Source: Acidobacteriota bacterium
GTDB taxonomy: Bacteria; Acidobacteriota; Terriglobia; Terriglobales; Acidobacteriaceae
NCBI GenBank assembly: GCA_021803035.1
Contig: JAJZME010000006.1
Location: 1 to 64,000 of the forward strand
Direction of reading: 5' to 3'
Length of the DNA stretch: 64,000 bases
Shown here piece by piece: positions 1,722 through 37,976 of the stretch. Position 1 is the first letter of the stretch. Each line of letters starts with the position of its first letter. Under the pieces are notes generated by a model that saw nothing but the letters and a program-made list of their open reading frames with translations, was not told where the DNA came from and ran no database searches. The position numbers and the translations under genes were made by a program.

Positions 1722-2360
1722 ATGGCGCAAATCCAGGAACTATATGACGCAATTCTGCACGGCAACGCCAAGCAGGCGCACGCGGTGACGCAGGCCGCGA
1801 TCGAGGCGGGGGCGGAGCCTTTGCCCCTGATCTCCGAATCGATGATGCCGGCGATGGAGGCGGTGGGCCGGCTGTTTGAAGAGGAAGAATACTTTGTTCC
1901 CGAGCTGCTGCTGGCCGGGCGGGCCATGAAGAGCGCGATGGAGCTGCTGCGCCCGCTGATGACCGCCTCGGGGCAGAAGCTGTCGACGCGGGTGGTGATT
2001 GGAACGGTGAAAGGCGATTTGCACGATATTGGAAAGAACATCGTGGCTTCGATGCTGGAGGGCAGCGGCTTTGAGGTGATTGATCTGGGCGCGGATGTGT
2101 CGCCGGAGAACTTTGTGGCGGCGGTGGAAGAGCGCAAGCCGCAGGTGGTGTGCATGTCGGCGCTGCTGACGGTGACCATGCCGGCGATGAAGACGACGAT
2201 CGAGGCGCTGAAGAATGCGGGGTTGCGGACGCAGGTGAAGGTGCTGATCGGCGGCGCGCCGGTGACGAGCCAGTACGCCAAGGAGATCGGGGCGGACGGA
2301 TACAGCGAGAACGCAAGCGGCGCGGTCAGCGCGGTCAAGAATCTGCTGGCGGTGGCCTGA
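1722..2360 (+). CDS. mtaC: Corrinoid protein of a methanol-type methyltransferase system (MtaC-like)
   Basis: This 212-residue protein has a helical N-terminal B12-binding cap (about residues 1-88) and a Rossmann-like cobalamin-binding domain. The signature is D99-L-H101-D-I-G104, in which the histidine is the lower axial cobalt ligand, followed by SALLT at 146 and GGAPV at 177-181. Length and layout match MtaC/MtbC/MttC-type proteins, which carry the methyl group as methyl-Co(III) between a substrate methyltransferase and an acceptor methyltransferase. The mtaB homologue 35 bp downstream identifies it as the MtaC partner. The start has a strong ribosome-binding site (AGAGGAG). It is the first gene of an apparent five-gene operon. 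Confidence 0.88.
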   Translation: MAQIQELYDAILHGNAKQAHAVTQAAIEAGAEPLPLISESMMPAMEAVGRLFEEEEYFVPELLLAGRAMKSAMELLRPLMTASGQKLSTRVVIGTVKGDLHDIGKNIVASMLEGSGFEVIDLGADVSPENFVAAVEERKPQVVCMSALLTVTMPAMKTTIEALKNAGLRTQVKVLIGGAPVTSQYAKEIGADGYSENASGAVSAVKNLLAVA

Positions 2361-2395
2361 GCCGCAGGTCAAGGTCTTCCGCGCTGAGGAATGAA

Positions 2396-3790
2396 ATGCT
2401 GACAGAACAGACAATCCGGACGTACTCCTCTCTGGAGATTTCCACGGAAGACGGTCTGCTTTACGGCGTCAGCCCGCGTGTGCTGGAGTGCGGGCTGGGG
2501 TTGAAGATCGGGGCGGGCACGGTCTATCCGGAGGTCAACTTCACGCTGCCGGCGATGGATATTGCCGAGGAAACCTGGGCCGAGGTGATGGCGCACTACG
2601 CGCAGATGGGCGACCAGATTTTGCGGCGCGCGGTGTCGCTCGCGGCGCCGGGAATCATGCTGGAGTTCGAGCTGCTGCCGGCGATGACGGAGCGGCCCGA
2701 GTGGGGCGCCGAGATTACCGCGCTGCTCAAACAGCGGCTTATTGCCTGCCATGAGAAGCACGGGCTGCCGTGCGCGCTGCGCGTAACGCCCACCGACATT
2801 CGCGACCAGCGGAAGCCGCCGCTGCTGCGGACGGGCGAGCCGTGGGAGCGGCTGCGGCGCTCGCTGGAGCTTTGCGCCGAGGCCGGCGCGGACATTCTTT
2901 CCATTGAGTCGGTGGGCGGCAAGGAAGTACACGACCAGGCGCTGATGTATGGCGATTTTGCCGGCATTGTGTTTGCGCTGGGCGTGCTGGCGCCGCGCGA
3001 CATGGCGTGGCTGTGGGGCAGGATTCAGGGTATCTGCGCAGCGCATCCGGGCGTGGTTTGCGGCGGCGATTCGGCTTGCGGATTTGCCAACACCGCCATG
3101 CAGCTTGCCCACCAGAAGATGCTGCCGGAGGTGCTGGCGGCGGTGGTACGCGCCATGAGCGCGGTGCGCAGCCTGGCGGCGTTCGAGCAGGGCGCACAGG
3201 GGCCGTCGAAGGATTGCGCCTACGAAGGGCCGGTGCTGAAGGCGATTACGGGCTGTCCGATTGCGATGGAAGGGAAGTCGGCCAGTTGCGCGCACTTCAG
3301 CCCGCTGGGCAATATTGCCGCGGCCATGTGCGACCTGTGGAGCAACGAGTCGGTGCAGAACGTGCGGCTGCTTTCGGGCAATGCGCCGGAGGCGTTTACC
3401 GAGTTGCTTGCTTACGACTGCCGGCTGATGAATGCCGCCGCGGCCAGCGAAGGCGGCGCGCTGCGCATGAGGAACTGGATGACCGCCTCCGACGAATGGC
3501 TTAGCCCGCAGGCGGCGGTGCTTTCGCCTGCGGCGACGATCCGCATTGCGGCTGCGATTGTGGGCGCGGATGGGCCGTATCAGCGTACGTTGGCCGCGGG
3601 CCGCGCCGCCGTGGAGATTATCAAGAACGGAGCCGCGCTGGAGAAGCTGCGCCTTTCGCGCAAGGAGCAGCAGTGGCTGGCGCGCATCGATGAGGCGCTG
3701 GATGGGTTTCCCGCCGGGGAACTGGAGCTAATGCGCGCTGTGGAAGAGCAATATGGCGGTCTTTACGACAAGGCGAGCTATGGGCTGTAG
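2396..3790 (+). CDS. mtaB: Methanol:corrinoid methyltransferase, MtaB-like
   Basis: The 464-residue protein aligns end to end by eye with archaeal MtaB. Shared blocks include LSIESVGGKEV, GDSACGFANTAM, GPSKDCAYEG, EGKSASCAH and CDLWSNESV. MtaB activates methanol on zinc and methylates the cobalt of MtaC. The three zinc ligands known from Methanosarcina (Glu164, Cys220, Cys269) correspond to E171, C228 and C274, and all are present, so a functional methanol-type enzyme is likely. A related methoxylated substrate cannot be excluded. TGAGGA precedes the ATG at 2396; the open frame extends further upstream but overlaps the corrinoid gene. Methanol could come from pectin demethylation, which fits the polysaccharide hydrolases in the window. 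Confidence 0.9.
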   Translation: MLTEQTIRTYSSLEISTEDGLLYGVSPRVLECGLGLKIGAGTVYPEVNFTLPAMDIAEETWAEVMAHYAQMGDQILRRAVSLAAPGIMLEFELLPAMTERPEWGAEITALLKQRLIACHEKHGLPCALRVTPTDIRDQRKPPLLRTGEPWERLRRSLELCAEAGADILSIESVGGKEVHDQALMYGDFAGIVFALGVLAPRDMAWLWGRIQGICAAHPGVVCGGDSACGFANTAMQLAHQKMLPEVLAAVVRAMSAVRSLAAFEQGAQGPSKDCAYEGPVLKAITGCPIAMEGKSASCAHFSPLGNIAAAMCDLWSNESVQNVRLLSGNAPEAFTELLAYDCRLMNAAAASEGGALRMRNWMTASDEWLSPQAAVLSPAATIRIAAAIVGADGPYQRTLAAGRAAVEIIKNGAALEKLRLSRKEQQWLARIDEALDGFPAGELELMRAVEEQYGGLYDKASYGL

Positions 3791-3871
3791 TCAGGGCCGC
3801 GCGATTGCCTGCACTGATGCGGGGCAGCAGAGCCGACGCGCCGGCGCGGGAGGCTCCTGAAGCGAGTGGGT

Positions 3872-4612
3872 ATGCGTCTGAAAGCGATCATTTGCCAGGT
3901 TCTGACGCGGGAGATGGAAGACGCGCTCCGCCGGACGCCGCACGCGGTGGAAGTGGAGACGGTGACCATGGGCCTGCACGATCTGGGCGCGCAGATGCGG
4001 CCGCATCTGCAGCAGCGCATCGATGCGGCGGATGCGGGCGGTTACGACGCCATCGTGATGGGCTATGCGCTGTGCGGGCGGGGTACGGAGGGCCTGCGCG
4101 CCGGCGGAACGCAACTGGTGCTGCCGCGCGCGCATGATTGCATCGGGGTGCTGATGGGCAGCCGCCAGCGGTACCAGGAGTATTTCGAGGGGCATCCGGG
4201 TGTGTACTATCGTTCGCCGGGATGGATCGAGTTTCAAACGCCGGGCAAGCCGCTGGAGCCGGCACTGGCGGCGTCGAAGCGCGTGCTGGGCGAACGGCGC
4301 ACGCTGGAAGAGCTGATCGAACAATACGGCGAGGAGAACGGAAGGTATCTCTTCGAGCAGTTCAGCGCCTATCGGCGGCATTATTCGGGGCTGACTTACA
4401 TTGCCACCGGCGTGGGGGCGGAGAACGGATTTCGCGATCAGGCGCGCGCCGAAGCGGAAAAGCAGGGCTGGACCTTTGAAGAGGTGAAGGGCTCGCTCTC
4501 GTTGCTGCAGCGGTTGATCAATGGCGAGTGGGATGAGGCGGATTTTCTGGTTGTGCCGCCGGGCGCGGCGGTGCGCGCAACCCTGAACGAGCGGATTGTG
4601 GAAGCGGTATGA
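3872..4612 (+). CDS. DUF1638 family protein of the corrinoid operon
   Basis: This protein of about 246 residues matches my memory of the DUF1638 family, which accompanies corrinoid methyltransferase genes in acetogens and methanogens and has no assigned reaction. Visible features are a Rossmann-like start ([12 protein letters not shown]), a glycine/cysteine segment [12 protein letters not shown], the [13 protein letters not shown] block, and a C-terminal FLVVPPG. The cysteines and the RAHDC motif could bind metal or cofactor. Start is uncertain between GTG 3866 and ATG 3872. The stop overlaps the ATG of the next gene by 4 bp, so the two are probably translationally coupled. That suggests work with the activase or the corrinoid protein. 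Confidence 0.75.
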
Positions 4613-6165
4613 GCGCAGAGAGAGTGCGAATCCGGCTGGAACCGCTATCGGTGGAAATTGCGGCGGCGCGCGGCGCACTGCTGATTTCAAGCCTGGCGGA
4701 TCACGGCTTCGAGTTTCCCTGCGGAGGCACGGGCACTTGCGGCGGCTGCGGGGTGCGCGTGCTATCCGGCTCGCTGCCGGTGACGGACGCCGACCGCGAA
4801 GTGTTTGGCGCCGACGAGTTGGCGCAGGGATGGCGGCTGGCGTGCCAGGCGCGGGCCGAGACGGCGCTGGTGCTGGAGTGCGGGCAGTGGCGCATGGATG
4901 TGCTGGCGGATAGCGCCGGTTTGCCGCTGGCGGGCATGCAGGTTGGAGCGGGCAGGCGCGGATTGGGTATTGCCATCGACCTGGGCACCACCACGATTGC
5001 CGCGCAGACGATCGACCTGGGCTCGGGGCAGGTGCTGGGGGTTGAGACCGCGCTGAATCCGCAGGCCGGGTTTGGTGCGGATGTAATGAGCCGGATTCGC
5101 GCGGCATTGCACGGCGCGGACCTGACCGGCGTGATTCGCGCTGCGCTGGGGCAGATGGTTGCGCGGCTCGCGCAGGGGCGCGCCGACGAGATGGTTGCAG
5201 TGATCCTCGTAGGCAACACGGTGATGCACCATTTGTTTTCAGGTTGCAGCGTGGAACCGCTATCGCACGCGCCGTTCGCATCGCCGTATCTGGACGCGGA
5301 AAGCTTCAGCCCCGCGGCATTGGGCTGGGCGCTGCCCGCGAGCTGCACGGTGCGCTTTGTGCAATGTCTGGGCGGCTTCGTGGGCTCGGACATTCTGGCC
5401 GGCATTGTTGCCACAGGCATGACGCGCGGCGAGGATCTGGTGGCGCTGGTGGATCTGGGCACCAACGGCGAGATCGCCATCGGCAACCGGAATGGAGTGG
5501 TGTGCGCCTCGACAGCGGCCGGGCCGGCGTTTGAAGCCGGCACGATCCGCATGGGAATGCGCGCGGCTACGGGGGCTGTTTCGCATGTTGCGCTTGACAA
5601 CGGCGCGCTGAAGGCCACGGTGATCGGCGATGCGGAGCCGCGCGGCATTTGCGGCAGCGGGCTGGTGGATGCGGTGGCGGCGGGGCTGAGCAGCGGGGCG
5701 ATTCGCGCCTCGGGACGCATCGCGGGCGGCAGCAAGAAGCTGCCCGTGGCGGAGCCGGTGGTGCTTTACCAGTCCGATGTGCGCGAGCTGCAGTTGGCAA
5801 AGGGCGCCATCGCGGCGGGATTTCGCCTGCTGCTGAGACGCCTGCGCGCAAGCGCCGGCGATCTGAAGAGCATTTACCTGGCGGGCGCATTCGGCAACTA
5901 TGTGCAGATTGAGAGCGCTGTCCGCATCGGGTTGATGGAGGCTCCGCAGGCGCTGATTCACGCGGCCGGCAACACGGCGCTGCGCGGCGCGAAGCTGCTG
6001 CTTTGGGCGGGCGATGATCCGGCGCTGCCGCCGATTGAGCACATCAGCCTGGCCGCCGAGCCCGGTTTTGAAGACGAATTTGCCAATTGCATGGCATTTC
6101 CTGAGGCGGCGGGTGAGCCGTCCATGTTTGCATCCGGACTTGCATCCGGCGCGCATGCCGGATGA
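4609..6165 (+). CDS. Reductive activator of corrinoid proteins (2Fe-2S plus ASKHA ATPase, DUF4445)
   Basis: This 518-residue protein starts with a plant-type 2Fe-2S ferredoxin domain with ligands C38, C44, C47 and C79. A linker leads to an ASKHA-type ATPase region with [11 protein letters not shown] and [15 protein letters not shown] phosphate-binding motifs and a late YLAGAFGN motif. This is the architecture of RACE proteins, which use ATP to reduce cob(II)alamin back to the active Co(I) state after accidental oxidation. Archaeal RamA does the same job with different iron-sulfur clusters. It overlaps the DUF1638 gene by 4 bp. Its presence shows that the operon carries its own repair system. 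It would act in the cytoplasm on the MtaC-like protein. Confidence 0.88.
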
Positions 6166-6205
6166 GGCCGGCGAGCGGGCGAGTACGACCGAGGGAGCGA
6201 AGAAT

Positions 6206-7483
6206 ATGGCTACGGCAACGGGAACCGTGAAGAGTCGCGAACGGCTCGTAACCACACTCAACCACAAGCAGCCGGATCGCATCCCGATTGATTTTGGCGG
6301 CACGGGTGTGACCGGCATCCACGCAAGCTGCGTGGCGGAGCTGCGTGATTACTACGGGCTCGAAAAGCGGCCGGTGCGCATTCACGAGCCCTTCCAGATG
6401 CTGGGGCTGGTGGAAGAGGACTTGCGCGAAGCCATGGGGTTGGACGTGGTGGGCGTCTTTCCGCGAGGCACGATGTTCGGCTTTCCGGCCGACGAGTGGA
6501 AGAGCTGGCGATTCAATGGGCTTGAGGTGCTGGTGCCGGGCCGGTTCAACGTGACGACCGATACCAAGGGCGACACGCTGATCTATCCGGACGGCGACAC
6601 CAGCGTTCCTCCCAGCGGGCGCATGCCGCAGGGCGGCTACTTTTTTGATTGCATCATCCGCCAGGAGCCGTTTGACGAAGAAAAGCTGAACCCGGAGGAC
6701 AATCTTGAGGAATATAGTCCGGTTTCGCAGGAAGATCTCGACCACCTTGCGCGGGCCACGCAGGCGGCTGCGGCTACGGGGCAGGGCGTGATTGCCAGCC
6801 TTGGCGGCACCGGACTGGGCGATATTGCGTTCGTTCCCGGACCTTCGCTGAAGCATCCCAGGGGAATCCGCGACGTCACGGAGTGGTACATCTCCACCAG
6901 CAGCCGGCAGGATTATGTGCACAAGGTCTTCGAGCGGCAATGCGAGATTGCCATCCAAAACCTGGAGCGCGTGGCCGCCGCGATGAGCGACCGCGTGCAG
7001 GCTGTCTTTCTGTGCGGCACCGATTTTGGAACGCAGACTTCGGCCTTCTGCTCGGTGAAGACCTTTCGTAATTTGTACTTTCCCTACTACAAGCTGCTGT
7101 GCGACTGGATTCACGCGCATACGGGGTGGAAGGTCTTCAAGCACTCCTGCGGCGCGGTCTCAAAATTCGTGCCTTCGTTTATTGAGGCGGGAATCGACAT
7201 TCTCAACCCGGTGCAGTGCTCGGCAACGGGGATGGAACCGGAACAACTGAAGGCGAACTTCGGCGATCAGATTGTATTCTGGGGCGGAGGCGTGGACACG
7301 CAGCGAGTGCTGCCGTTTGCAACGCCTGCCGAGGTTCGCGAGCAGGTGCTGCGCCGCTGCGAGATCTTCGCGCCCGGCGGCGGATTCGTCTTCAACACCA
7401 TTCACAACGTGCAGGCGCAGACGCCGGTGGAAAATATCGTGGCCATGCTCGATGCGGTACACGAATTCAACGGCAGAAAATAG
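6206..7483 (+). CDS. UroD-family methyltransferase (MtaA/MtbA-like relative)
   Basis: The 425-residue protein belongs to the uroporphyrinogen-decarboxylase superfamily that also holds methylcobamide:CoM methyltransferases. The family start (RERLVTTLNHKQPDRIPID) and the H313-x-C315 motif in FKHSCGA are clear. In MtaA a third zinc ligand is a late cysteine; here that region reads FNTIHNVQ (H400) instead, and C338 is another candidate. In this operon it could move the methyl group from the corrinoid protein to an acceptor such as tetrahydrofolate, or be a second substrate enzyme. It is not haem-pathway HemE by sequence style. The frame is open upstream to 6014, but GGGAG before ATG 6206 and overlap with the activase favour the shorter start. 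Confidence 0.8.
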   Translation: MATATGTVKSRERLVTTLNHKQPDRIPIDFGGTGVTGIHASCVAELRDYYGLEKRPVRIHEPFQMLGLVEEDLREAMGLDVVGVFPRGTMFGFPADEWKSWRFNGLEVLVPGRFNVTTDTKGDTLIYPDGDTSVPPSGRMPQGGYFFDCIIRQEPFDEEKLNPEDNLEEYSPVSQEDLDHLARATQAAAATGQGVIASLGGTGLGDIAFVPGPSLKHPRGIRDVTEWYISTSSRQDYVHKVFERQCEIAIQNLERVAAAMSDRVQAVFLCGTDFGTQTSAFCSVKTFRNLYFPYYKLLCDWIHAHTGWKVFKHSCGAVSKFVPSFIEAGIDILNPVQCSATGMEPEQLKANFGDQIVFWGGGVDTQRVLPFATPAEVREQVLRRCEIFAPGGGFVFNTIHNVQAQTPVENIVAMLDAVHEFNGRK

Positions 7484-7567
7484 ACGGCGCGGAGAGAATT
7501 TGCGCTGCGCCGAGGTAATTGACGAAAATCAGGCATTCGATTCTTTGAGGGCAAGGAGTTCTCTGTT

Positions 7568-10075
7568 TTGCGATTCCTGTTGCGCTGCGCGCTCCGCACT
7601 TCGGCTCTTTCGGCGCTGGTTCTCGGCCTTGGCTCTTCGCTTTGGGCGCAGCCCAGCACCATTCCGATCAGGCAGCTCGACCCGGCGCGCAACCCGGCGC
7701 GACTCAAGCCGTTTACGCGGGCTCTGCCGGTTACCGCGCAGTACATTTGGACGCAGGGAGGCGCGCAAACGCCGGCCCGGAACACGATACGGGCGGAAAA
7801 CGCGCAGTGGGAGTTCCGGCGCGTCTTTACGCTGGCGAAAGTTCCGCGCCATGCCACGCTGTACGTTGCCGCATCGGGCGACGTGTCAATCTGGCTCAAC
7901 GGCGAGCGCCTGCTCGGGTATTTCGACAACCGCACGCTGCCGCCGGGCTACACCGTTCACGCGCTGCCTGTGGCGGCAGTTTTGCGCGCGGGCCGCAATG
8001 CGCTGGCTCTTCGCGTGGACCATTTGCATGGCGCGCACCACAGCACGACTGATGCGCTGATTCTGCAATACGTGGGCGGACGGGCGATTGCCGTGAAGCT
8101 GGTTCCGGCGGCGCGCGGCGAGCAGGCAGCTCCGCTGATGGTGAGCGACACAAAGTGGCGCGGCCGGATGATGGACGACGCAGCCGCTGCCGGCAATATG
8201 GCGGCGATTTCAACCGCGCGCTACAACGGCACGGCGTGGCCCGCGGTCTCGTCGATTGGCGGCATTGAAAGCAATATCGATTTTTACCAATGGAACGCGG
8301 ACGCGGGTATGTATGCGTGGCCCGGGTACGTGGGCGCATCGCCGTTTCTGCGCCAGTACACCCTCGATCCGGTGCGCATTGTGAATGTGTATGCGGGCAG
8401 CGCCACGGTGAGCAACATGGAACGGCTCACGCATCCGGCGCAGGATTCCAGCGCGTTTACGGTGCGTCTTTCGCCGCACTCGGCCAGCGAGCTTTCGCCT
8501 GCGCTGATGCTGGATTTCGGCAGGGAGGTTGCGGGACGCATTCGCCTGCGCTCGGACTCGAACAAGCCCATCCTGGTGAGCACCTCGTATGGCGAAAGCG
8601 AAGGCGAGGCGCTGCACCAGCCGTTTCTGGGCGTGCGCACGATCTATATTCCGCCGCATGGGGAAGCATACGGGCCCAAGAGCGGCTTCCGCTATGTGCG
8701 GATTCGCTTTCTGACCAATGCGCGCCTGGCCGCCATTAACGTGGACGGCATTGCCTATCCGGTTGAGTACAAGGGATCGTTTGCTTCGCCCGATGCCATG
8801 CTCAACCGCATCTGGGCCACGGGCGCGTACACGGCGCACCTTTGCATGCAGGATGACATCTGGGACGGCGTGAAGCGCGACCGCGCGCGCTGGGCCGGCG
8901 ATCTGGACGTGAGCGGGCGGGTGATCAATGATGTTTTTGCCGGCCGCGCGCTGATGGAAGATACCTACGCGCGGCTGATTGAGGAAACCGGCGGCACGCG
9001 GGCCGTGAACGGCATCGATGGCTATTCGGCTCTGTGGATCGATGGGCTGGCGGCTTTCTACCGGCACACCGGCGACCATGTCTTTCTGCTGCGCATGCAT
9101 GGCGATTTGCTGGCGCTGTTGCGCACGATGAATCGCGACATTGGCCCGAACGGGCTGTTTGCGCCATTGCCTCACGAGCATTTTTTTGTTGACTGGTCGC
9201 CCGGCTTGAGCGCGAACACGCCGGAGGCGCGCCGCGCCACGGATTTTGAATATGTGCTGGCTTACAAGGAGGCGGCGTGGTTGCTGGGCCAGATGGGCGA
9301 CCGCAGTGCTGCCGCGCAGTATGCCGCGCGATACCGCGATCTGCGCGACAAGGCGCGCATGCTGCTGATGAATCCAGTGACGCACACCTTTGGGGCGACA
9401 TGGCAGACCAACGCCATGGCGGTGCTTTCCGGCGTGGCTACGCCGGCAGATTATGCGGCGCTGTGGAATCGCGTGTTTTCGAACATCGACGATGTGACGC
9501 CCAGCAGCCCGCGGATTACGCCCTACTACGGCTACTACGTGCTTGAAGCAATGTCGAAGATCGGGCACAGCGCCCAGGCGCTGCGCTGGCTGAGCGATTT
9601 CTGGGGCGGGATGATCGATGAGGGCGCCACCAGCTTCTGGGAGGCGTATGATCCGCGCTGGACCAAGCGCCATCCGCACACCGGCCTCGAAGCCGACGGG
9701 GTTACCGGATACTACGTGAGCCTGGCGCACGGGTGGTCGGCAGGACCGACGGCGTGGCTGTCGGACGAGCTGCTGGGCGTGCGCCCCACCGGCGCGGGAT
9801 TCCGGACGGTGACGATTGAGCCGGAGTTGGCGGGCTTGCCGTGGATCGAGGGCTCGGTGCCCACGCCGCACGGAATCATTCATCTGCGCGCGGAGAAGGG
9901 AAGGATTGCGCTGGACTTGCCCTCAGGCGTGGACGCCACGGTGCTGGTGCGCGCTTCAGGCGCAGAGGCAATGCGCGTGAACGGAGCGCCGGTGCGCAGC
10001 GGTCTGGCGCCTGTGGCCGGATATCGGAGCATTCAGATTGACCGGGCCGGTCAGTACGAGATCGTTACGCGCTAA
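7568..10075 (+). CDS. Secreted GH78-type alpha-L-rhamnosidase
   Basis: This 835-residue protein begins with a signal peptide ending in SSLWAQ, has beta-sandwich domains in the first half, then an (alpha/alpha)6 barrel with the GH78-style block DGVKRDRARWAGDL and the downstream YSALWIDGL, and a C-terminal beta domain (EADGVTGYYVS onward). GH78 enzymes release alpha-L-rhamnose from pectic rhamnogalacturonan and plant glycosides; the related unsaturated glucuronyl hydrolases cannot be excluded. The start is TTG: AAGGAG at 7553-7558 is 9 nt before it and no in-frame ATG gives the signal peptide. It follows the corrinoid operon by 84 bp in the same direction. A decayed paralogue lies at 58.2-59.4 kb. 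Confidence 0.82.
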   Translation: MRFLLRCALRTSALSALVLGLGSSLWAQPSTIPIRQLDPARNPARLKPFTRALPVTAQYIWTQGGAQTPARNTIRAENAQWEFRRVFTLAKVPRHATLYVAASGDVSIWLNGERLLGYFDNRTLPPGYTVHALPVAAVLRAGRNALALRVDHLHGAHHSTTDALILQYVGGRAIAVKLVPAARGEQAAPLMVSDTKWRGRMMDDAAAAGNMAAISTARYNGTAWPAVSSIGGIESNIDFYQWNADAGMYAWPGYVGASPFLRQYTLDPVRIVNVYAGSATVSNMERLTHPAQDSSAFTVRLSPHSASELSPALMLDFGREVAGRIRLRSDSNKPILVSTSYGESEGEALHQPFLGVRTIYIPPHGEAYGPKSGFRYVRIRFLTNARLAAINVDGIAYPVEYKGSFASPDAMLNRIWATGAYTAHLCMQDDIWDGVKRDRARWAGDLDVSGRVINDVFAGRALMEDTYARLIEETGGTRAVNGIDGYSALWIDGLAAFYRHTGDHVFLLRMHGDLLALLRTMNRDIGPNGLFAPLPHEHFFVDWSPGLSANTPEARRATDFEYVLAYKEAAWLLGQMGDRSAAAQYAARYRDLRDKARMLLMNPVTHTFGATWQTNAMAVLSGVATPADYAALWNRVFSNIDDVTPSSPRITPYYGYYVLEAMSKIGHSAQALRWLSDFWGGMIDEGATSFWEAYDPRWTKRHPHTGLEADGVTGYYVSLAHGWSAGPTAWLSDELLGVRPTGAGFRTVTIEPELAGLPWIEGSVPTPHGIIHLRAEKGRIALDLPSGVDATVLVRASGAEAMRVNGAPVRSGLAPVAGYRSIQIDRAGQYEIVTR

Positions 10076-11031: not shown

Positions 11032-11116
11032 CCCGACAATATACGATAACTTTTGATCACTTGTCGAGAAGACAGCGGCGTGGCTCGCCTGTACTGTTGA
11101 TGTGAGTCGTGAGCTG

Positions 11117-12181
11117 ATGGCCCCTTCCGTCGCTGTGCGAACTTTCGGTTATCTCCCCGGTGGAGTACCCATTCAAGCCTGGACGCTCAGCGGAGCGGGC
11201 GGTCTCGTCGCCGAAATCATTCCTTACGGCGCGACGGTGACGCGGCTGCTGGCGCCGGACCGGGATGGGCGCCTTGCCGATGTGGTCCTTGGTTTCGACA
11301 ACCTGCAGGCCTACCGCGCCAACCGCGGGTATCTTGGCGCCATGGCGGGCAGGGTGGCGGGACGGATCACGGGGGGACGCTTTTGTCTCGACGGGCGCGT
11401 ATACCAACTGGCCTGCAATGATGGACCAAACCATCTGCACGGCGGGCTGGAGGGATTCGACAAGAAGGTCTGGACAGCGGCTGCGACCAGCGGCGCGGCG
11501 GGCGCGCCTTCGCTGCGCCTGACGTACCACAGTTCCGATGAAGAGGAAGGCTATCCGGGCGCAGTGGACGTAACGGTGACCTACACAGTTACTGATCGCA
11601 ATGTGCTTCTGGCGGAAACCGAGGCCATGGCCGACCGCGCGACTCCGCTGAACCTGACGCACCACTCCTATTTCAACCTGGCGGGCGAGGCGGCGGGTCC
11701 AGTTGCCGATCATGAGCTGCAGATCCACGCTGGCCGCTTTGTCGCCACCGATGAGCACATGACTCTGCTGGGCCGCATGGAGGCGGTGGACGGCCGCGCC
11801 AATGATTTTCGCCAACCGCGCCGGCTGGGTGAAGCCATGCCGGGACTGTTTCAGAATCACGGCGATTTATATCGAATTCGTGAACAGACGGACGGTCATT
11901 CGCACGCAGAGCTCATTCCGGCGGCGCGCCTGATGCATCGGAAGAGTGGGCGGGTGCTGGAAGTATCGACCACGGCTCCCTACTTGCAGCTTTATACGGG
12001 GGCGAGTCTTGACGGATCGCTCATGGGTAAGTCGGGCGTAGTTTATCAGCGTCACGCGGGGGTTTGCCTGGAGTGCGAAGGGTATCCGGATGGGGTAAAC
12101 ACGCCGGCGCTGGGCGATATTATTTTGCGGCCCGGTCAACCGCGGCGCGAGACCACGGCGTATGCCTTCTTATCGGCTTGA
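11117..12181 (+). CDS. galM: Aldose 1-epimerase (mutarotase)
   Basis: The protein of about 354 residues matches galactose mutarotase: FGYLPGG, IIPYGATVTRL, GAMAGRVAGRI, NDGPNHLHGG, a central NLTHHSYFNLAGE with the catalytic histidine, and a late CLECEGYPDGVN with the catalytic glutamate. It interconverts alpha and beta anomers of free aldoses in the cytoplasm. A GTG at 11102 gives five extra residues; the ATG at 11117 is chosen because family members start close to this point. It heads a probable operon with the fused oxygenase 67 bp downstream, which argues that the locus handles a free sugar. Confidence 0.9.
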   Translation: MAPSVAVRTFGYLPGGVPIQAWTLSGAGGLVAEIIPYGATVTRLLAPDRDGRLADVVLGFDNLQAYRANRGYLGAMAGRVAGRITGGRFCLDGRVYQLACNDGPNHLHGGLEGFDKKVWTAAATSGAAGAPSLRLTYHSSDEEEGYPGAVDVTVTYTVTDRNVLLAETEAMADRATPLNLTHHSYFNLAGEAAGPVADHELQIHAGRFVATDEHMTLLGRMEAVDGRANDFRQPRRLGEAMPGLFQNHGDLYRIREQTDGHSHAELIPAARLMHRKSGRVLEVSTTAPYLQLYTGASLDGSLMGKSGVVYQRHAGVCLECEGYPDGVNTPALGDIILRPGQPRRETTAYAFLSA

Positions 12182-12248: not shown

Positions 12249-14531
12249 ATGGGAACAGATGCGCGAGTTATGCCCGGTTCGCACGCCGGATTGGACTACA
12301 GCCTCACGGGCATTAACGCTACGCTGGCTGTCGAAAAGGGACTGGCCGAAGCGGACTGGTACCAGTGCGCCGTGCCGCGCGGAGTGATGCGCAGCCTTCT
12401 GGAGCGGCGCGACGGCCCGGCGATTCGCGACACGATTCTGTGGTTTGCCCTGATCATCGGCAGCGGCGCGGCCACCTATCTGCTTCGCGGCACCGCCTGG
12501 ATGGCCTTGCCCTATGCGCTCTATGCGGTGCTCTATGCATCTACTTCGGATTCGCGCTGGCATGAGTCAGGCCACGGCACGGCATTCAAGACCGACTGGA
12601 TGAACAATGCTCTTTATGAGATCGCATCCTTTATGGTGATGCGCGAGTCGACGGTCTGGCGCTGGAGCCACAATCGCCACCACAGCGACACGATCATTGT
12701 GGGCCGCGATCCCGAGATTGCCGTTCCGCGCCCGCCCGACATCAAAGCAATTATCCTGTCCTTCTTCAACCTCACGGCTTATCCAAAGTATTTCCGGCGG
12801 ATTCTTCTTCACTCCGCCGGACGCATGGCTGCCGATGAGAAGACTTTTATTCCCGCGGCCGAATTTCCCAAGGTCTATCGCCGCGCGCGGATTTATGTCG
12901 CTATCTATGCCGCTGTGATTGTGCTTGCTATCTATACCCATAGCATTTTGCCGCTGCTGTTTATTGGTCTGCCGAATGTCTTCGGCACGTGGCTTCTGAT
13001 TACTTATGGGTACACGCAACACGCGGGACTGGCCGAGAATGTTCTCGATCATCGTCTTAACTGCCGCACGGTATACATGAATGCGCTGAACCGGTACCTC
13101 TACTGGAACATGAACTATCACGTGGAGCATCACATGTTCCCGCTTGTGCCTTATCATGCGCTTCCGCGGCTGCACGAAGCGGTCAAGGATGATTGCCCTG
13201 TGCCATACCCCGGGCTTGTTGCGGCCTGGCGCGAGATCGTTCCGACGATTCTGCGGCAGGTGAAAGATCCGGCCTATCACGTCAAACGCAAGCTGCCTCC
13301 AGCAAAGCCGAGGCTGAACGGAACAATTCACTCGTCTGCGGCGCAGCCGGATGCGGAAGGATGGCTTGAAGTTTGTCCGGCGGCGGACTTGCACGGCGCG
13401 GATGTGATCCGCTTTGACCACGGCCAAAAGACCTACGCACTTTACCGCGATGCTGAAGGCCGTCTCTTTGCTACCGACGGCGTGTGCACGCATGGCAACA
13501 CGCATCTGTCAGATGGATTGATTGTGGGCAACATGATCGAGTGCGCCAAACACAACGGGCGTTTTTATCTCGCCGACGGCTCGCCGGCGCGCGCACCGGT
13601 TTGCCGCGGCCTGGCTACTTATCCCATTGAAGAGCTTAACGGGCGCCTGCGGATCAACGTGGTTCGCGCCAGCGGCGCGGGCGCCCGCGTACCGGTCAGC
13701 TTGCGCTTCCGCGTGGTCAGCAATCGCAGCGTGGCTACGTTCATCAAGGAGTTAGTACTGGAGCCGGTCGATGAGGGTAGAAAGCTCACCTTTAGCCCTG
13801 GCGATTACCTCCAGTTCGATATTCCGGCTTACGATAAGATTCTCTTCCGCGACTTTGATATTCCTGAACCTTTCGCTACGGTTTGGAAGAATCATCATCT
13901 TTTCGAGCTGGAGGCTGCGAATCCCGTGTCCGGACGGCGCAACAATTATTCGCTTGCCAGTAACATGGCAATCGAGCGCGCACTGCGTTTCAACGTCCGC
14001 ATTGCCATGCCTCCGCCGGGCCAGGATTGCGCGCCGGGCGTGGGATCAAGTTATGTCTTCAGCCTCAAGCCCGGTGATACGGTTTCCGCCATTGGGCCTT
14101 TCGGAGATTTTCATATCAAGCCTACGCAGCGCGAGATGATTTACGTGGGCGGCGGCGCAGGCATGGCTCCGCTGCGCGCCCATATCTCGCACCTTCTTGA
14201 AACGGAGCACGCGGCGCGCAAGGTGAGTTACTGGTACGGGGCAAGGTCCAAGCAGGAGTTGTTCTACGAGGATTATTTCCTTGATTTAGAAGAGAAGCAC
14301 CATAACTTTTCATTTCATGTGGCGCTTTCTTCGCCTTTGCCGGAGGATAACTGGATCGGCAATGCCGGTTTTATCCACGATGTTCTGTTTCGGAATTATC
14401 TCCAGAAACATCCTAATCCGGCTGCCGCTGAATACTATCTCTGCGGGCCGCCGTTGATGATCAAGGCTTGTAAGACCATGCTGGCCGCGCTTGAGGTTCC
14501 GGCGCAGCATATCTCGTACGACGAATTTTAG
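12249..14531 (+). CDS. One-chain MocD-like desaturase/hydroxylase, Rieske ferredoxin and NqrF-like reductase
   Basis: This 760-residue protein joins three redox modules. Residues 1-350 are a membrane di-iron fatty-acid-desaturase fold with three histidine boxes (H105-ESG-H109; H141, H144, H145; H291, H294, H295) and hydrophobic segments at about 62-97 and 215-255; the wording (SDSRWHESGHGTAFKT, WNMNYHVEHHMFP) matches MocD. Residues 370-475 are a Rieske domain with C413-x-H415 and C432-xx-H435. Residues 480-760 are an FAD/NAD reductase of NqrF type (NNYSLAS, VGGGAGMAPLR, YLCGPPLM). In rhizobia MocD, MocE and MocF are separate proteins implicated in O-demethylating the rhizopine 3-O-methyl-scyllo-inosamine. 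Here one protein carries NADH-to-substrate electron flow. O-demethylation of a methylated sugar or cyclitol is the favoured inference; plain hydroxylation or desaturation is the alternative. Confidence 0.85.
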   Translation: MGTDARVMPGSHAGLDYSLTGINATLAVEKGLAEADWYQCAVPRGVMRSLLERRDGPAIRDTILWFALIIGSGAATYLLRGTAWMALPYALYAVLYASTSDSRWHESGHGTAFKTDWMNNALYEIASFMVMRESTVWRWSHNRHHSDTIIVGRDPEIAVPRPPDIKAIILSFFNLTAYPKYFRRILLHSAGRMAADEKTFIPAAEFPKVYRRARIYVAIYAAVIVLAIYTHSILPLLFIGLPNVFGTWLLITYGYTQHAGLAENVLDHRLNCRTVYMNALNRYLYWNMNYHVEHHMFPLVPYHALPRLHEAVKDDCPVPYPGLVAAWREIVPTILRQVKDPAYHVKRKLPPAKPRLNGTIHSSAAQPDAEGWLEVCPAADLHGADVIRFDHGQKTYALYRDAEGRLFATDGVCTHGNTHLSDGLIVGNMIECAKHNGRFYLADGSPARAPVCRGLATYPIEELNGRLRINVVRASGAGARVPVSLRFRVVSNRSVATFIKELVLEPVDEGRKLTFSPGDYLQFDIPAYDKILFRDFDIPEPFATVWKNHHLFELEAANPVSGRRNNYSLASNMAIERALRFNVRIAMPPPGQDCAPGVGSSYVFSLKPGDTVSAIGPFGDFHIKPTQREMIYVGGGAGMAPLRAHISHLLETEHAARKVSYWYGARSKQELFYEDYFLDLEEKHHNFSFHVALSSPLPEDNWIGNAGFIHDVLFRNYLQKHPNPAAAEYYLCGPPLMIKACKTMLAALEVPAQHISYDEF

Positions 14532-14543
14532 GCAGGCATTCTA

Positions 14544-15485
14544 ATGGCATCTACTTCAGGTTTTCTCAACGACGGCACCGCGGAGGCTCCGAAGCTGCGG
14601 GTGTACTTGAATCTCGATACGCTTGTCGATCTGCGCCCCGGCACGGCTTGGCCGGGTTATGAAGGGGAGCAACTCTACCGGCGTTTGCAGGAGGATGGCT
14701 TTGAAGGCGTTCAACTGACGTCAGATGCTCCGGCTCCCGCGGGCGCACTGCTTCCTTACTGCGGGCTGGACCGCATCAATACTCCGCAAGAAGCGGACGC
14801 CATTGCCGGCAAACATGCGGCGCGCGGGGATGCTTGCATTACTGTTCACGCCGGTTGGGGCATGGAAGATGAAGACGAGGCGTTTCGGATTGTCGAAGCC
14901 ATTCTTGCGGCTTCAGAGAAGCACAACCTGCTCACCTTTATCGAGACGCATCGGGCCACGATTACGCAGGACATCTGGCGGACGGCGCAGATCGCCCGAC
15001 ACTTTCCCGAGGTTCGCTTCAACGGCGACTTCAGCCATTACTATTGCGGGCAGGAGCTGGTGTACGGGGACTGGCAGGACAAGCTCGACTTTCTGGAGCC
15101 GGTTTTCAGGCGCGTGGGGTTTCTTCACGGGCGCGTCGCCAGCTCGGGGTGCATGCAGGTTCCTATCGGGGCTGATTGTGCGGCCAGGCCCGCGCAGGCT
15201 CATGGCGTAATCAACTATCTCGATCATTTCAAGGAGCTTTGGACGCGCGCCATGCTTGGTTTTCTGGGGACGGCGCAGGCGGGAGATGTGCTTGTTTTTG
15301 CTCCGGAATTGTTGGCGGGGACGCATTATTATGCGCGGAAGTTTCCTGACGCCGCAGGCCGGCTTGTCGAAGAGACCGATCGCTATGCCGAGGCGCTGCT
15401 CTACAAGGACCTTGCGCGCTCCTGCTTTGCGGAGGCTGTGCGGATACAAGCCGAAGCGCGCCGGAGTGGTGCGGATAGGGCGTGA
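14544..15485 (+). CDS. TIM-barrel sugar isomerase/epimerase (xylose isomerase-like)
   Basis: The 313-residue protein has the AP-endonuclease-2/xylose-isomerase-like barrel style: LTFIETHRATITQD, VRFNGDFSHYYCGQE and late FAPELLAG segments supply acidic and histidine residues expected for a divalent metal site. Such enzymes isomerise or epimerise sugars, inososes and keto-sugars. MocC and IolE/IolI of cyclitol pathways belong to the same broad group. It begins 12 bp after the fused oxygenase gene and its stop overlaps the upstream end of the next frame, so it is clearly in the same operon. The natural reading is that it acts on the product of the oxygenase. Substrate unknown. Confidence 0.72.
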   Translation: MASTSGFLNDGTAEAPKLRVYLNLDTLVDLRPGTAWPGYEGEQLYRRLQEDGFEGVQLTSDAPAPAGALLPYCGLDRINTPQEADAIAGKHAARGDACITVHAGWGMEDEDEAFRIVEAILAASEKHNLLTFIETHRATITQDIWRTAQIARHFPEVRFNGDFSHYYCGQELVYGDWQDKLDFLEPVFRRVGFLHGRVASSGCMQVPIGADCAARPAQAHGVINYLDHFKELWTRAMLGFLGTAQAGDVLVFAPELLAGTHYYARKFPDAAGRLVEETDRYAEALLYKDLARSCFAEAVRIQAEARRSGADRA

Positions 15486-15523
15486 AAGATAAGATGCTTT
15501 TATCTGGCAAGGAGCAGAGCACA

Positions 15524-16888
15524 ATGCATTCGTCCATCAACCGCGGCTATCTTACCTTTCTGGCGGTTACGGGAGCGCTGGGCGGCCTGCTCTTCGGATT
15601 CGACATCGCGATCATTACGGGCGCGGGGCCATTTATTACGCGGCGTTTTGCGCTGAGCGATCTTGGGCTGGGGTGGGCGTTCAGCTCGCTGCTGTTTGGC
15701 TGCGTCATTGGGTGTTTTGTGGCCGGCAGGCTGGCGGACCGCTACGGGCGCAGGAGGCTGCTGGTGCAGGTGGCGGCGCTGTTTGCGCTCACGTCGATTG
15801 CAACGGCACTGGCGGGGAACTTTACGGCGTTTGTGACGGCACGCTTTCTGGGCGGGCTGGCGGTGGGCGGAGTGTCGCTGTTGTCTCCCATGTATGTGGC
15901 GGAGGTGGCTCCGCCTTCGGTGCGCGGCCGCATGGGCACGCTCTATCAACTGTCGATCATTACGGGTGTCATCATCTCCTATGGCATCAACTATCTTTTG
16001 CGGGATACGGGGGCGAATAACTGGCGCTGGATGTTTTTGAGCGGTGTGGTGCCGTCGGCGATCTTTCTGCTCCTGATTTCGATGGCTCCCGAGACTCCGC
16101 GCTTTTTGGCGCTGGCCGGCAAGCGGGAACAGGCTTTCCATGTGCTGGCGCGGATAGGCGGCGCGGCAAGCGCGCATGGCGAAATTGCCGAGATTGAAGC
16201 GAGCATCCGGAAGCAGCCGGGCGCGGTGAGCGGATTCCGGCGGCTCGGCGTGCGGCGCGCGCTTTTGGCCAGCATCGGGCTGGCGATTCTGGTTCAGGTG
16301 TCGGGCATCAACACGATCATGGACTACGCGCCGGCGATCTTTCAGTCGGCGGGGTGGAAGATCAGCGGAGCGCTGGCATCGACATTCATTGTGGGGCTGA
16401 CCGAGTTCGTCTTTACCGTTCTCTCGCTGTGGATGATCGACCGCTTCGGGCGCAAGCCGCTCTATGTCGTGGGCTCGCTGGGCATGACGGTTTCACTGGT
16501 TTTGCTTGTTGCGACGATTGCGGAGGGCCGTTTCCACGGCACGTTTGTTCTGGCCGTGATTCTGGTCTATCTTGCCTTCTTTTCTGCCTGCGTGGGGCCG
16601 GTGTTCTGGACGCTGGTGCCGGAGATTTTTCCCAACGATGTGCGCAGCGCGGCCATGATTGTGCCCGTGCTGATTCAGTGGGTCGCCAATGCGGTGGTGG
16701 TGCTGTTTTTTCCGTTCGCATTTCATGTCATTGGCAAGGCATCTACGTTCAGCTTTCTGGCGGTGATGTCGCTGGCGCAGGGGATCTTTACCCTCTTTTA
16801 CATCCCGGAGACCAAACACAAGCGGCTGGAGGAGATTGAAGCCTATTGGACGGCGCCGAAGAAACAGGCCCTTTCGGTTGAGCCCTGA
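15524..16888 (+). CDS. MFS sugar porter (XylE/AraE/GLUT-type)
   Basis: This 454-residue membrane protein has about 12 transmembrane segments and the sugar-porter signatures GGLLFGFDIAIITGA in helix 1, DRYGRRRLL after helix 2, PETPRF before the central loop, DRFGRKPL in the second half, VPEIFPNDVR, and a closing PETKHKRLEEIE. It probably takes up a monosaccharide with protons. The frame is open from GTG 15482, but AAGGAG at 15509-15514 lies 9 nt before ATG 15524, which fixes the start. It is operonic with the isomerase upstream and would bring in the sugar the locus degrades. Confidence 0.9.
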   Translation: MHSSINRGYLTFLAVTGALGGLLFGFDIAIITGAGPFITRRFALSDLGLGWAFSSLLFGCVIGCFVAGRLADRYGRRRLLVQVAALFALTSIATALAGNFTAFVTARFLGGLAVGGVSLLSPMYVAEVAPPSVRGRMGTLYQLSIITGVIISYGINYLLRDTGANNWRWMFLSGVVPSAIFLLLISMAPETPRFLALAGKREQAFHVLARIGGAASAHGEIAEIEASIRKQPGAVSGFRRLGVRRALLASIGLAILVQVSGINTIMDYAPAIFQSAGWKISGALASTFIVGLTEFVFTVLSLWMIDRFGRKPLYVVGSLGMTVSLVLLVATIAEGRFHGTFVLAVILVYLAFFSACVGPVFWTLVPEIFPNDVRSAAMIVPVLIQWVANAVVVLFFPFAFHVIGKASTFSFLAVMSLAQGIFTLFYIPETKHKRLEEIEAYWTAPKKQALSVEP

Positions 16889-24296: not shown

Positions 24297-25355
24297 TCAG
24301 GAAGCTGCGCCGTGACCGTTTGCCGCGCCTGGGCCGGTCTTGCCCCGGAAGCGGGTATAAACAAAGACAATATAGGCAACGGCCAGGGCCATGCCCAGAC
24401 TCCACCAGATGAGTCCTACCGACAGGGTGTAAGGGCCCGAAATGGCGCGATTGATGGTGATGCTGTTGGCCGCGCCCGTGGTGGCGGGCAACAGGTCGGG
24501 ATAAAGCCCCCAGACGCCGCCGGCCAGCATCAGGAAGAGATAGCTGGCGGAGGCCAGGAATGCCTTGAGCGGCTGCATGCGCCGGTTCCAGAACCAGATG
24601 GCGGCCAGCGCCGCCGCCACGCCCACCGGAACGATGAAGGTAGCGGGATAGTTGAAGTAGTTGTCCAGGTTGGCGGGGCGCACGTAGATGGTGGCGAAGA
24701 GGCTGATCACGGTGAGCGCGACGAGCAGGAACCAGAGCGGCGTGACTACGCGGCGGGCGCGCTGCTCCAGCTCGCCGGAGGTCTTGACGGTGAGCCACAG
24801 GGCGCCGTGCTGCATGAGCGCCACCAGCGCCACCAGGCCGCCGATTACCGTGTACCAGTCGAGGACGCCGGGGTAGGTGCCTGGCAGCCAGTTGGTCCAC
24901 AGGGGCAGGAAGAAATAGCCGTCAGGCTGAAGCGAAACGCCGCGCAGCACATTGGCGAAGGCCGCGCCAAAGAAGATGCAGAGCAGGGCGCTGGCCAGCC
25001 CGAAGACGCCGTCCAGCAGTGCGCGCCACACGCCCAGGTCAAGGTGGCTGCGCAGTTCCAGGCTTACGCCGCGCAAAACCAGCAGCCACAGCACGATCAT
25101 CAGGGGCAGATAAAAGCCCGAGAAGGCCGAGGCATAGAGGAGCGGAAAGGCGAAGTACAGCGTGCCGCCGCCGGCCAGCAGCCACACCTCGTTGCCGTCC
25201 CAGACCGGCCCGATGCTGCCCAGCGTGGCGCGGCGCTCAGACTCGTTGCGCGTGAGAAAAAGATGCAGCACGCCCACGCCCAGATCAAAGCCGTCGAGCA
25301 CCACGTAGCCCACGATCATAATGGCGACCAGCCAGAACCAGACGAAACCCATCAT
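24297..25355 (-). CDS. cydB: Cytochrome bd ubiquinol oxidase subunit II
   Basis: This 352-residue membrane protein is CydB: the start FVWFWLVAIMIVGYVVLDGFDLGVG is diagnostic, followed by GPVWDGNEVWLLAGGGTLYFAFP, and about 8-9 helices follow. CydB pairs with CydA in the cytoplasmic membrane to oxidise quinol and reduce oxygen with high affinity without proton pumping. It lies 39 bp after cydA in the same direction. No typical cydX follows. Confidence 0.96.
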   Translation of the reverse strand: MMGFVWFWLVAIMIVGYVVLDGFDLGVGVLHLFLTRNESERRATLGSIGPVWDGNEVWLLAGGGTLYFAFPLLYASAFSGFYLPLMIVLWLLVLRGVSLELRSHLDLGVWRALLDGVFGLASALLCIFFGAAFANVLRGVSLQPDGYFFLPLWTNWLPGTYPGVLDWYTVIGGLVALVALMQHGALWLTVKTSGELEQRARRVVTPLWFLLVALTVISLFATIYVRPANLDNYFNYPATFIVPVGVAAALAAIWFWNRRMQPLKAFLASASYLFLMLAGGVWGLYPDLLPATTGAANSITINRAISGPYTLSVGLIWWSLGMALAVAYIVFVYTRFRGKTGPGAANGHGAAS

Positions 25356-25394
25356 GGACGAACCTCCTTCCGCGAGGCTGAAAGTGACGAACGA

Positions 25395-37820: not shown

Positions 37821-37866
37821 GGTGAAGCACCCGTCTTCCAGACATCGGCATGAAATCAATACACCA

Positions 37867-37893
37867 GGCGCGGACCAATCGAAGGTCCGCGCC
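37867..37893. repeat. GC-rich hairpin in the metF leader
   Basis: A perfect 10-bp stem GGCGCGGACC / GGTCCGCGCC with a 7-nt loop lies 47 bp before the metF start. On the plus strand it is followed by GATTTT; on the minus strand, the direction of ahcY and metF, no T-run follows. It may be an attenuator or partial terminator between ahcY and metF. Confidence 0.45.
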
Positions 37894-37950
37894 GATTTTA
37901 AAGCCTTTAGGCCAGCAGCTCGTACCGTGTCCGCGTAGAAATTGTTAGCT

Positions 37951-37976
37951 CCCAGGTCCCACAATCGGGACCTGGG
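37951..37976. repeat. REP-like hairpin, copy 2
   Basis: A perfect 10-bp stem CCCAGGTCCC / GGGACCTGGG with a 6-nt loop. Together with the following GCGCCCA it resembles the hairpin at 18483-18502 and its flank, marking a small interspersed family. Confidence 0.55.

Follow-up and report, generated by a model that had tools for sequence, protein, structure and literature searches.

How does a corrinoid-dependent methyltransferase system work in a bacterium that appears to respire oxygen, and where do its methyl groups come from and go? The question is raised by an operon at positions 1722–7483 of the stretch of DNA analyzed here (the window), which comprises the first 64 kb of a 68-kb contig from an acidobacterial genome of 3.86 Mb that is 98.5% complete. 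An earlier note, based on the letters of this DNA, had described the operon as a methanol-type corrinoid methyltransferase system in an apparently aerobic host. The interval is filled by five genes on the plus strand, which code for a corrinoid protein (P0001), MtaB (P0002), a DUF1638 protein (P0003), a reductive activase (P0004), and a UroD-fold protein (P0005, here called U5); the earlier note had passed over the DUF1638 gene and the closing UroD-like gene. Spacings of 35, 75, −4, and 40 bases between successive genes indicate an operon layout. Our analysis showed that this is a real, intact MtaB-family corrinoid system. We tentatively favor, short of an even chance, that it is a corrinoid demethylase for methanol or another small methyl donor of carbohydrate origin, in which DUF1638 and the activase preserve activity in air and the methyl group goes to homocysteine.

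The identity of the central enzyme is clear. P0002 matches the Pfam MtaB family (PF12176) with 504.2 bits (cut-off 25) over positions 2–449 of 460. The Glu/Cys/Cys zinc ligands of MtaB are E171, C228, and C274, as the earlier note had numbered them, and are kept in 79/79 aligned MtaB rows, including that of Methanosarcina barkeri. Of the 112 positions with 95% or more conservation among the bacterial rows, 84 are identical in the M. barkeri enzyme, the zinc ligands among them. The NCBIfam equivalog for methanol MtaB, NF040651, is matched with 411.1 bits against a cut-off of 720; its name, MtaB_Meth, suggests a methanogen-based model. In the phylogeny that the earlier note had called for, the window MtaB falls in a mostly acidobacterial clade, and its closest named relatives are acidobacterial metagenome-assembled genomes (MAGs), mostly titled Acidobacteriaceae. 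The tree has 79 rows from 14 phylum-level groups (73 of 80 named loci, the window, 2i2x_A, and L008–L011; L036, L047, L052, L061, L067, L074, and L087 were left out as partial or redundant). Since the branch of the distant M. barkeri enzyme, the sole experimentally known MtaB in the tree, is very long and acetogen sequences are missing from the rows, the tree leaves methanol specificity undecided. For the window enzyme, methanol is a candidate substrate.

MtaB is rare and patchy within the phylum and the family, with matches in 1/396 genomes drawn across the phylum and in 11/398 drawn from the family (one of the 11, G511, with a fragment only). Several locus (L) and genome (G) entries are the same contigs (L013 = G740:C46; L056 = G648:C81), so the sets are not independent. 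In a scan of named genomes, at least 553 of the at least 596 pattern matches listed encode MtaB relatives, and Acidobacteriota from a mire have already been reported to express mtaB (PMC10805028); the enzyme is thus less unexpected outside methanogens and acetogens than the earlier note had assumed. Three full MtaB copies (L013, L014, and L018; 78–81% identical to the window MtaB) and a fragment occur in one fen MAG, G740. A family of proteins of about 777 residues (for example, L057:10411–12744), whose open reading frame (ORF) community covers 12 MtaB loci, often directly follows mtaB in Ignavibacteriota and Bacteroidota; the member tested had no Pfam, NCBIfam, or PDB match. An ORF community of glycerate-kinase type near this family covers seven MtaB loci.

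The partner proteins are likewise intact. P0001 contains both corrinoid-binding domains (Pfam B12-binding, 109.5 bits; B12-binding_2, 77.3 bits) and the axial-histidine motif DLHDIG with H101. Its best PDB match is 1y80 (193.7 bits), a Moorella corrinoid protein, ahead of M. barkeri MtaC (2i2x_B, 109.2 bits). P0004 combines a Fer2 domain, in which the cysteines of the ferredoxin motif are present (C38, C44, C47, and C79), with the RACo middle and C-terminal domains, and matches PDB entry 3zyy with 217.9 bits. The histidine and the activase had both been reported as intact beforehand, and both hold. P0003 starts with GTG, with an in-frame ATG two codons later. Residues C10, C70, H90, and C92 are invariant among 14 aligned DUF1638 sequences and, judged from the alignment, could be a metal site. 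A search of the PDB with the DUF1638 profile gave no credible match, and the predicted fold (mean pLDDT 82) matched no PDB structure with an E-value of 0.001 or less (best 5e-3, TM about 0.2).

The operon begins 1.7 kb from the end of the 68-kb contig, a position that might suggest an assembly chimera or a decayed relic. We consider this extremely unlikely: frames and motifs are intact, composition is that of the rest of the window, and at locus L018 the same operon is joined to the same block of epimerase, desaturase, 313-residue protein, and porter genes as here. A foreign origin was also considered on compositional grounds and rejected, as the operon falls within the range of 29 other window genes in both guanine-plus-cytosine content and codon use. 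Rfam searches at the gathering threshold across the window, and at an E-value of 1 across 1200–1760, gave neither a B12 riboswitch nor another credible RNA match, and no tRNA was found in the window. Promoter and terminator scans of the region stayed at chance level; the region has 9 terminator-like stems (8.1 expected), among them the one between the U5 and glycosidase genes. In five relatives, a DUF6580-type protein (one member checked by Pfam) is encoded directly upstream of mtaC (for example, L014:7209–7766); at this place the window has no plus-strand ORF of at least 100 amino acids.

Gene content, rather than growth, supports the description of the host as apparently aerobic. The genome encodes a haem-copper oxidase of COX1 type (515.8 bits), and the window encodes cytochrome bd I and II. 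Of the neighbors that had been cited for aerobic life, cytochrome bd and a desaturase–Rieske–reductase fusion are confirmed, while the supposed HemY had no Pfam matches beyond Amino_oxidase and FAD families of a general kind. As had been claimed from the window, Wood–Ljungdahl genes were not found: the genome has no match for formate–tetrahydrofolate ligase (FTHFS), which is present in 2/6 mtaB-positive genomes searched, and acetyl-CoA synthase (CdhC) was detected in none of these six, this one included. The system thus resides in a host with oxygen-respiration genes and no detected acetyl-CoA synthase. How its corrinoid is kept reduced is suggested by the gene pair next to mtaB. Mutant fitness data link DUF1638 and RamA-like proteins to B12-dependent methionine synthesis, for which both were required in aerobically grown Phaeobacter (PMC5764234, in the part of the text available), and both proteins were more abundant in Ruegeria on nitrogenous osmolytes (available text of PMC12478193). 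Here, too, DUF1638 and a RACo/RamA-like activase are encoded together with a corrinoid protein, and BLAST detected DUF1638 at 14 of the 80 named MtaB loci and the activase at 16 of them. By this comparison, the pair offers the best answer so far to the oxygen puzzle that the earlier note had posed.

The case for homocysteine as the methyl acceptor rests on which transferases accompany MtaB. The 80 loci were examined over stretches of up to about 9 kb on each side, many of them short. Seven, from four phyla, contain a stand-alone homocysteine methyltransferase (HMT): L022 and L038 from Acidobacteriota, L039 from Verrucomicrobiota, L064 from Bacteroidota, and L075, L077, and L085 from Armatimonadota. 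In L039, genes for an MtaA-like protein, U5, MtaC, MtaB, DUF1638, the activase, and HMT follow in a row; in L022, MtaC and MtaB are encoded on one strand and the activase, a UroD protein (204.7 bits), DUF1638, HMT, and U5 on the other, all within 9 kb. Searching with a MetH domain, phmmer detected no pterin-binding transferase in any of the 80 loci, while it did recover the enzyme of genome G708 described below. This genome encodes a stand-alone HMT, P0006, on contig C2 (C211, C276, and C277), which is 60% identical to that of L022. P0006 belongs to a clade of 11 rows (support 100/98), seven of which adjoin corrinoid-system genes (L022, L075, L077, L085, L150, L151, and L152) and four of which do not (P0006 itself, L153, L154, and L155). 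Its type occurs in 10/398 family genomes, six of them shared with the 11 MtaB genomes (one-sided Fisher 1.7e-8, relatedness ignored); in the 50 same-genus genomes listed, it accompanies 5/6 with MtaB versus 4/44 others, again with relatedness ignored. The underlying search matched 389/398 genomes, since MetH and HMT/MetF fusions are picked up as well, and only the 10 genomes at 72% identity or more were counted.

Several observations weigh against this assignment. P0006 does not adjoin the operon, 73 of the 80 loci lack HMT in the stretch examined (many stretches being short), 5/11 MtaB genomes lack the P0006 type, and 4/387 genomes without MtaB have it. Two of the six genomes in the overlap, G738 and G644, have divergent MtaBs (50 and 53% identical to P0002). 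Other donors, too, can serve HMTs of this Pfam family. Furthermore, methionine needs no extra route here, because the genome also encodes a complete MetH and an HMT/MetF fusion (contig C17). Among five same-genus MtaB relatives searched, G608 and G708 encode FTHFS, and a single stretch of G708 (L149 = G708:C119) combines FTHFS and HMT with a methyl-tetrahydrofolate:corrinoid methyltransferase (326 bits, cut-off 259). This stretch points to a folate route in the mtaB-positive G708, so acceptors may differ between species; together with the complete MetH of the present genome, it slightly lowers our estimate for homocysteine and slightly raises that for folate.

In a folate route, the MtaB/MtaC step would be the same, U5, a further UroD-fold protein (P0007), or MetH would pass the methyl group to tetrahydrofolate (THF), and a reversed MetF would feed one-carbon oxidation or assimilation, as in methylotrophic acetogens without the Wood–Ljungdahl end. 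Acetogen methanol systems do finish at methyl-THF (available text of PMC13391211), and besides the genes of G608 and G708, the MetF gene in the window and the fusion on C17 would fit. Against this, both Pterin_bind matches in the genome are accounted for by dihydropteroate synthase and the complete MetH with its activation domain, leaving no stand-alone pterin-binding (methylcorrinoid:THF) methyltransferase, just as none was found in the 80 loci, and FTHFS was not matched (PurU and formate dehydrogenase were not searched for). We also know of no UroD-fold methylcorrinoid:THF transferase. We regard the folate route as somewhat unlikely, and homocysteine remains the acceptor that we tentatively prefer. 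A second corrinoid cluster, without MtaB, was seen in genomes G627, G643, and G007 (L146, L147, and L148); it encodes UroD-like, MtaC-like (45–47%), and RACo-like (31–33%) proteins and a stand-alone HMT of a separate clade.

The remaining operon gene encodes U5, which is only distantly related to MtaA. It matches Pfam URO-D with 62 bits and the MtaA model with 43 bits (cut-off 244), and its profile matches MtaA (4ay7, E 1.6e-11) best among PDB entries and also matches CdmB (9rui, E 2.4e-6). Its motif is HSC...TIH (H313, C315, and H400, counted from Met) versus HIC...GC in MtaA-like relatives; the histidine at the place of the third zinc cysteine of MtaA is found in 10/12 aligned U5-type and more distant rows. 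The predicted fold (mean pLDDT 80) matches UroD, MtaA, and MetE structures alike, so the fold search cannot separate these roles. U5-type genes occur in 13/398 genomes, six of them with MtaB (of 61 with a match, those with an identity of 64% or more across 136 residues or more were counted, with G527 and G598 represented by fragments; G419 and G405 [81% over 31 residues] and all weaker matches were dropped). In G577, G598, and G728, U5 is found with DUF1638 and the activase in genomes with no MtaB match, which ties U5 more closely to the corrinoid module than to MtaB itself. An MtaA-like gene also lies beside the U5 module in G577 and G598, and a corrinoid protein in G577 and on contig C93 of G738. 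One U5-type match (L131, G643:C114) carries an in-frame stop and is possibly a decaying copy.

URO-D searches of the genome gave four matches: HemE (408.8 bits, cut-off 303), U5, P0007, and one more distant protein. The latter three score at most 48 bits against MtaA and CmuA models with cut-offs of at least 235, so that no close MtaA was found in the genome (coenzyme M synthesis genes were not searched for). P0007, on contig C66 (H245, C247, and C332), is 72% identical to a UroD protein of L016 whose gene separates mtaC from mtaB; such a gene occupies this place in five of the named loci (one is short). Its type is present in 8/388 genomes, five with MtaB (11 matched, of which eight full-length ones at 63–100% were counted and the fragments in G702 and G699 and the 33% match in G476 were dropped; G740, with an 85% match in L156, is not among them and was probably outside that draw). 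The combination of UroD-fold proteins, a corrinoid protein, and a Ram activase without a folate methylase follows the same logic as type 1 mlp gene clusters (PMC10418091), and the operon could be read along these lines. This is very unlikely: such clusters, reported from anaerobes only, carry two or more MtaA-like proteins (Mlps) next to the corrinoid protein and Ram, whereas the present operon has MtaB at its center and a single distant UroD-like protein, weakly MtaA-like.

The origin of the methyl group is suggested by the genes that follow the operon (Table 1). The glycosidase gene starts 84 bases after U5 and is possibly on the same transcript. Further downstream, the aldose-epimerase-type protein has homologs encoded next to the MtaB operons of L018 (65% identical across 181 residues) and L063 (44%). 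In L018, the entire epimerase–desaturase–313-residue protein–porter block is inverted and adjoins the MtaB operon (65–74% identity). The sugar porter (69–82% identity) adjoins mtaB or U5 in four loci in differing orders (L012, L018, L019, and L128), with mtaB as its neighbor in L012 and L019 and U5 in L128. Genes for GH59 and GH78-like enzymes (L133), a GH36-like enzyme (L128), and RhaT (L156 = L013) flank U5 or MtaB genes, and U5-type genes elsewhere (L129 and L131) have housekeeping genes as neighbors; Pfam was run on selected neighbors. This context is a lead and not a test. Pectin, which had been named as a plausible methanol source, is weakly supported: one GH28-type gene lies 42 kb from the operon (pectin methylesterase was not searched for), whereas genes for a rhamnosidase-type glycosidase and a sugar porter are close by here and again at related loci.

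Table 1. Features of the window discussed in the text, with their positions and the basis of their assignment.
Feature	Position	Strand	Basis
MtaC-like corrinoid protein P0001, axial His H101	1722..2360	+	Pfam B12-binding, B12-binding_2; best PDB match 1y80; motif
MtaB-family zinc corrinoid methyltransferase P0002, ligands E171/C228/C274	2396..3790	+	Pfam MtaB; 40% identity to 2i2x_A
DUF1638 protein P0003	3866..4612	+	Pfam DUF1638 124.9 bits; alignment of 14
2Fe-2S/ASKHA corrinoid reductive activase, RACo/RamA type, P0004	4609..6165	+	Fer2, Raco_middle, RACo_C_ter; PDB 3zyy
UroD-fold protein P0005 (U5), H-x-C...H	6206..7483	+	Pfam URO-D 62 bits; profile PDB match MtaA 4ay7; motif
Terminator-like stem	7547..7563		Terminator scan
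Alpha-L-rhamnosidase-type (GH78-like) glycosidase	7568..10075	+	Bac_rhamnosid6H, Bac_rhamnosid_C
Aldose 1-epimerase-type protein	11102..12181	+	NCBIfam galM_Leloir 253.6 bits, under its cut-off
Fatty-acid-desaturase + Rieske + NqrF-like reductase fusion	12249..14531	+	Pfam/NCBIfam; 73% identical protein beside L018 MtaB operon
Uncharacterized 313-residue protein	14544..15485	+	No Pfam or PDB match; 70% identical protein beside L018 MtaB operon
Sugar-porter major facilitator superfamily transporter	15482..16888	+	TIGR00879 351.6 bits, over cut-off
Cytochrome bd I and II	24297..26741		
MetF	36969..37964		
Thioredoxin-like 2Fe-2S domain fused to O-methyltransferase	51241..52596		

The same neighborhoods could mean that the real substrates are O-methylated sugars or methyl glycosides, with U5, and perhaps MtaB, acting as a corrinoid-dependent O-demethylase and methanol being incidental. 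Besides the recurring glycosidase, RhaT, and porter genes, the O-demethylases MtvB, OdmB, and MtoB of the UroD superfamily (PMC13222342) would fit this. The 84/112 conserved positions shared with M. barkeri MtaB, zinc ligands included, and the U5-type genes beside housekeeping genes count against it. Acidobacteria are, moreover, rich in glycosidases. A sugar-specific system is, in our view, quite unlikely, and a small methyl donor such as methanol, released from carbohydrates, is the substrate that we tentatively prefer.

From these genes, motifs, and gene neighborhoods, and from the absence of matches for the families searched, we infer how substrate, acceptor, UroD-fold proteins, and physiology may fit together. 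With its zinc, MtaB would activate the O-methyl donor, methanol or another small compound, and would methylate Co(I) on MtaC. When oxygen or side reactions give Co(II), RACo would re-reduce the corrinoid with ATP, which DUF1638 may assist by an unspecified step. U5 and P0007 would be further methyltransferases acting on the same corrinoid protein, for other donors or the outgoing step. The methyl group, supplied by the breakdown of plant or moss carbohydrates, would then pass via P0006 to homocysteine and yield methionine, and not coenzyme M or acetyl-CoA. A broader version, which is unlikely as a whole, would be a hub free of folate and coenzyme M in oxygen-respiring bacteria, in which a single corrinoid protein receives methyl groups removed by several MT1-type enzymes (MtaB and UroD-fold demethylases with H-x-C...H), the donors being methanol and O-methylated sugars of plants or mosses. 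DUF1638 and RACo would hold this corrinoid protein in its reduced state in air, and a stand-alone HMT would make methionine. What is new here is the genome in which neither a stand-alone folate transferase nor a close MtaA was found, the related loci in which HMT but no folate transferase was found, the histidine of U5 at the third zinc cysteine of MtaA, the pairing of U5 with DUF1638 and the activase where MtaB is missing, and the recurring nearby sugar genes. Among the papers listed by literature searches on these subjects, we recognized none that describes corrinoid demethylation of methylated sugars or ties MtaB or methanol to homocysteine. The operon offers a second, MtaB-linked setting for working out the role of DUF1638, and the H-x-C...H UroD-fold proteins become candidate demethylases.

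Compared with the Methanosarcina MtaB/MtaC/MtaA system (PDB 2i2x), the operon shares the MtaB family, the E/C/C zinc site, and the axial-histidine motif of MtaC, but differs in its 40% identical MtaB, the lack of a close MtaA, the genes for oxygen respiration, and a score below the NCBIfam cut-off for methanol MtaB. Acetogen MtaABC systems (Moorella, Acetobacterium, and Eubacterium; PMC13391211, available text) are alike in MtaB and MtaC, with 1y80 as the best PDB match of P0001, but they pass the methyl group to THF and the Wood–Ljungdahl pathway, whereas the searches of this genome detected no acetyl-CoA synthase, no FTHFS, and no stand-alone pterin methyltransferase. Type 1 mlp clusters also combine UroD-fold proteins, a corrinoid protein, and Ram without a folate methylase, and their methyl group may return to methionine; their proposed donors are sulfur or selenium compounds, and MtaB lies outside their definition, which demands at least two Mlps and so far covers anaerobes only (PMC10418091, available text). 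U5 resembles the UroD-superfamily demethylases CdmB, MtvB, OdmB, and MtoB (PMC13222342) in that its profile also matches CdmB, but differs in its best match, MtaA, and its H-x-C...H motif. The MtgBCDE system of Ruegeria and Phaeobacter, with RamA and DUF1638 (PMC12478193; PMC5764234), shares aerobic corrinoid demethylation, DUF1638, and the RamA-like activase, and a tie to homocysteine methylation has been proposed for it. Its donor enzyme is MtgB, for glycine betaine, and it has a folate-side MtgD, while the present system has MtaB and a separate complete MetH; by Pfam, MtgB (MttB type) is not in the operon, the part of the genome searched for it. Finally, Acidobacteriota from Stordalen Mire share both phylum and gene, and express it (PMC10805028). 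That study reads mtaB as methanol demethylation and takes the acidobacterial transcripts as competition with methanogens; its available text does not take up the acceptor, DUF1638, U5, or a sugar context. In metagenomes from peat and soil, mtaB serves to mark methanol methylotrophy. Should homocysteine be the acceptor and carbohydrate-bound methyl the source, as we tentatively propose, the gene would mark methyl salvage by aerobic sugar degraders rather than one-carbon energy metabolism.

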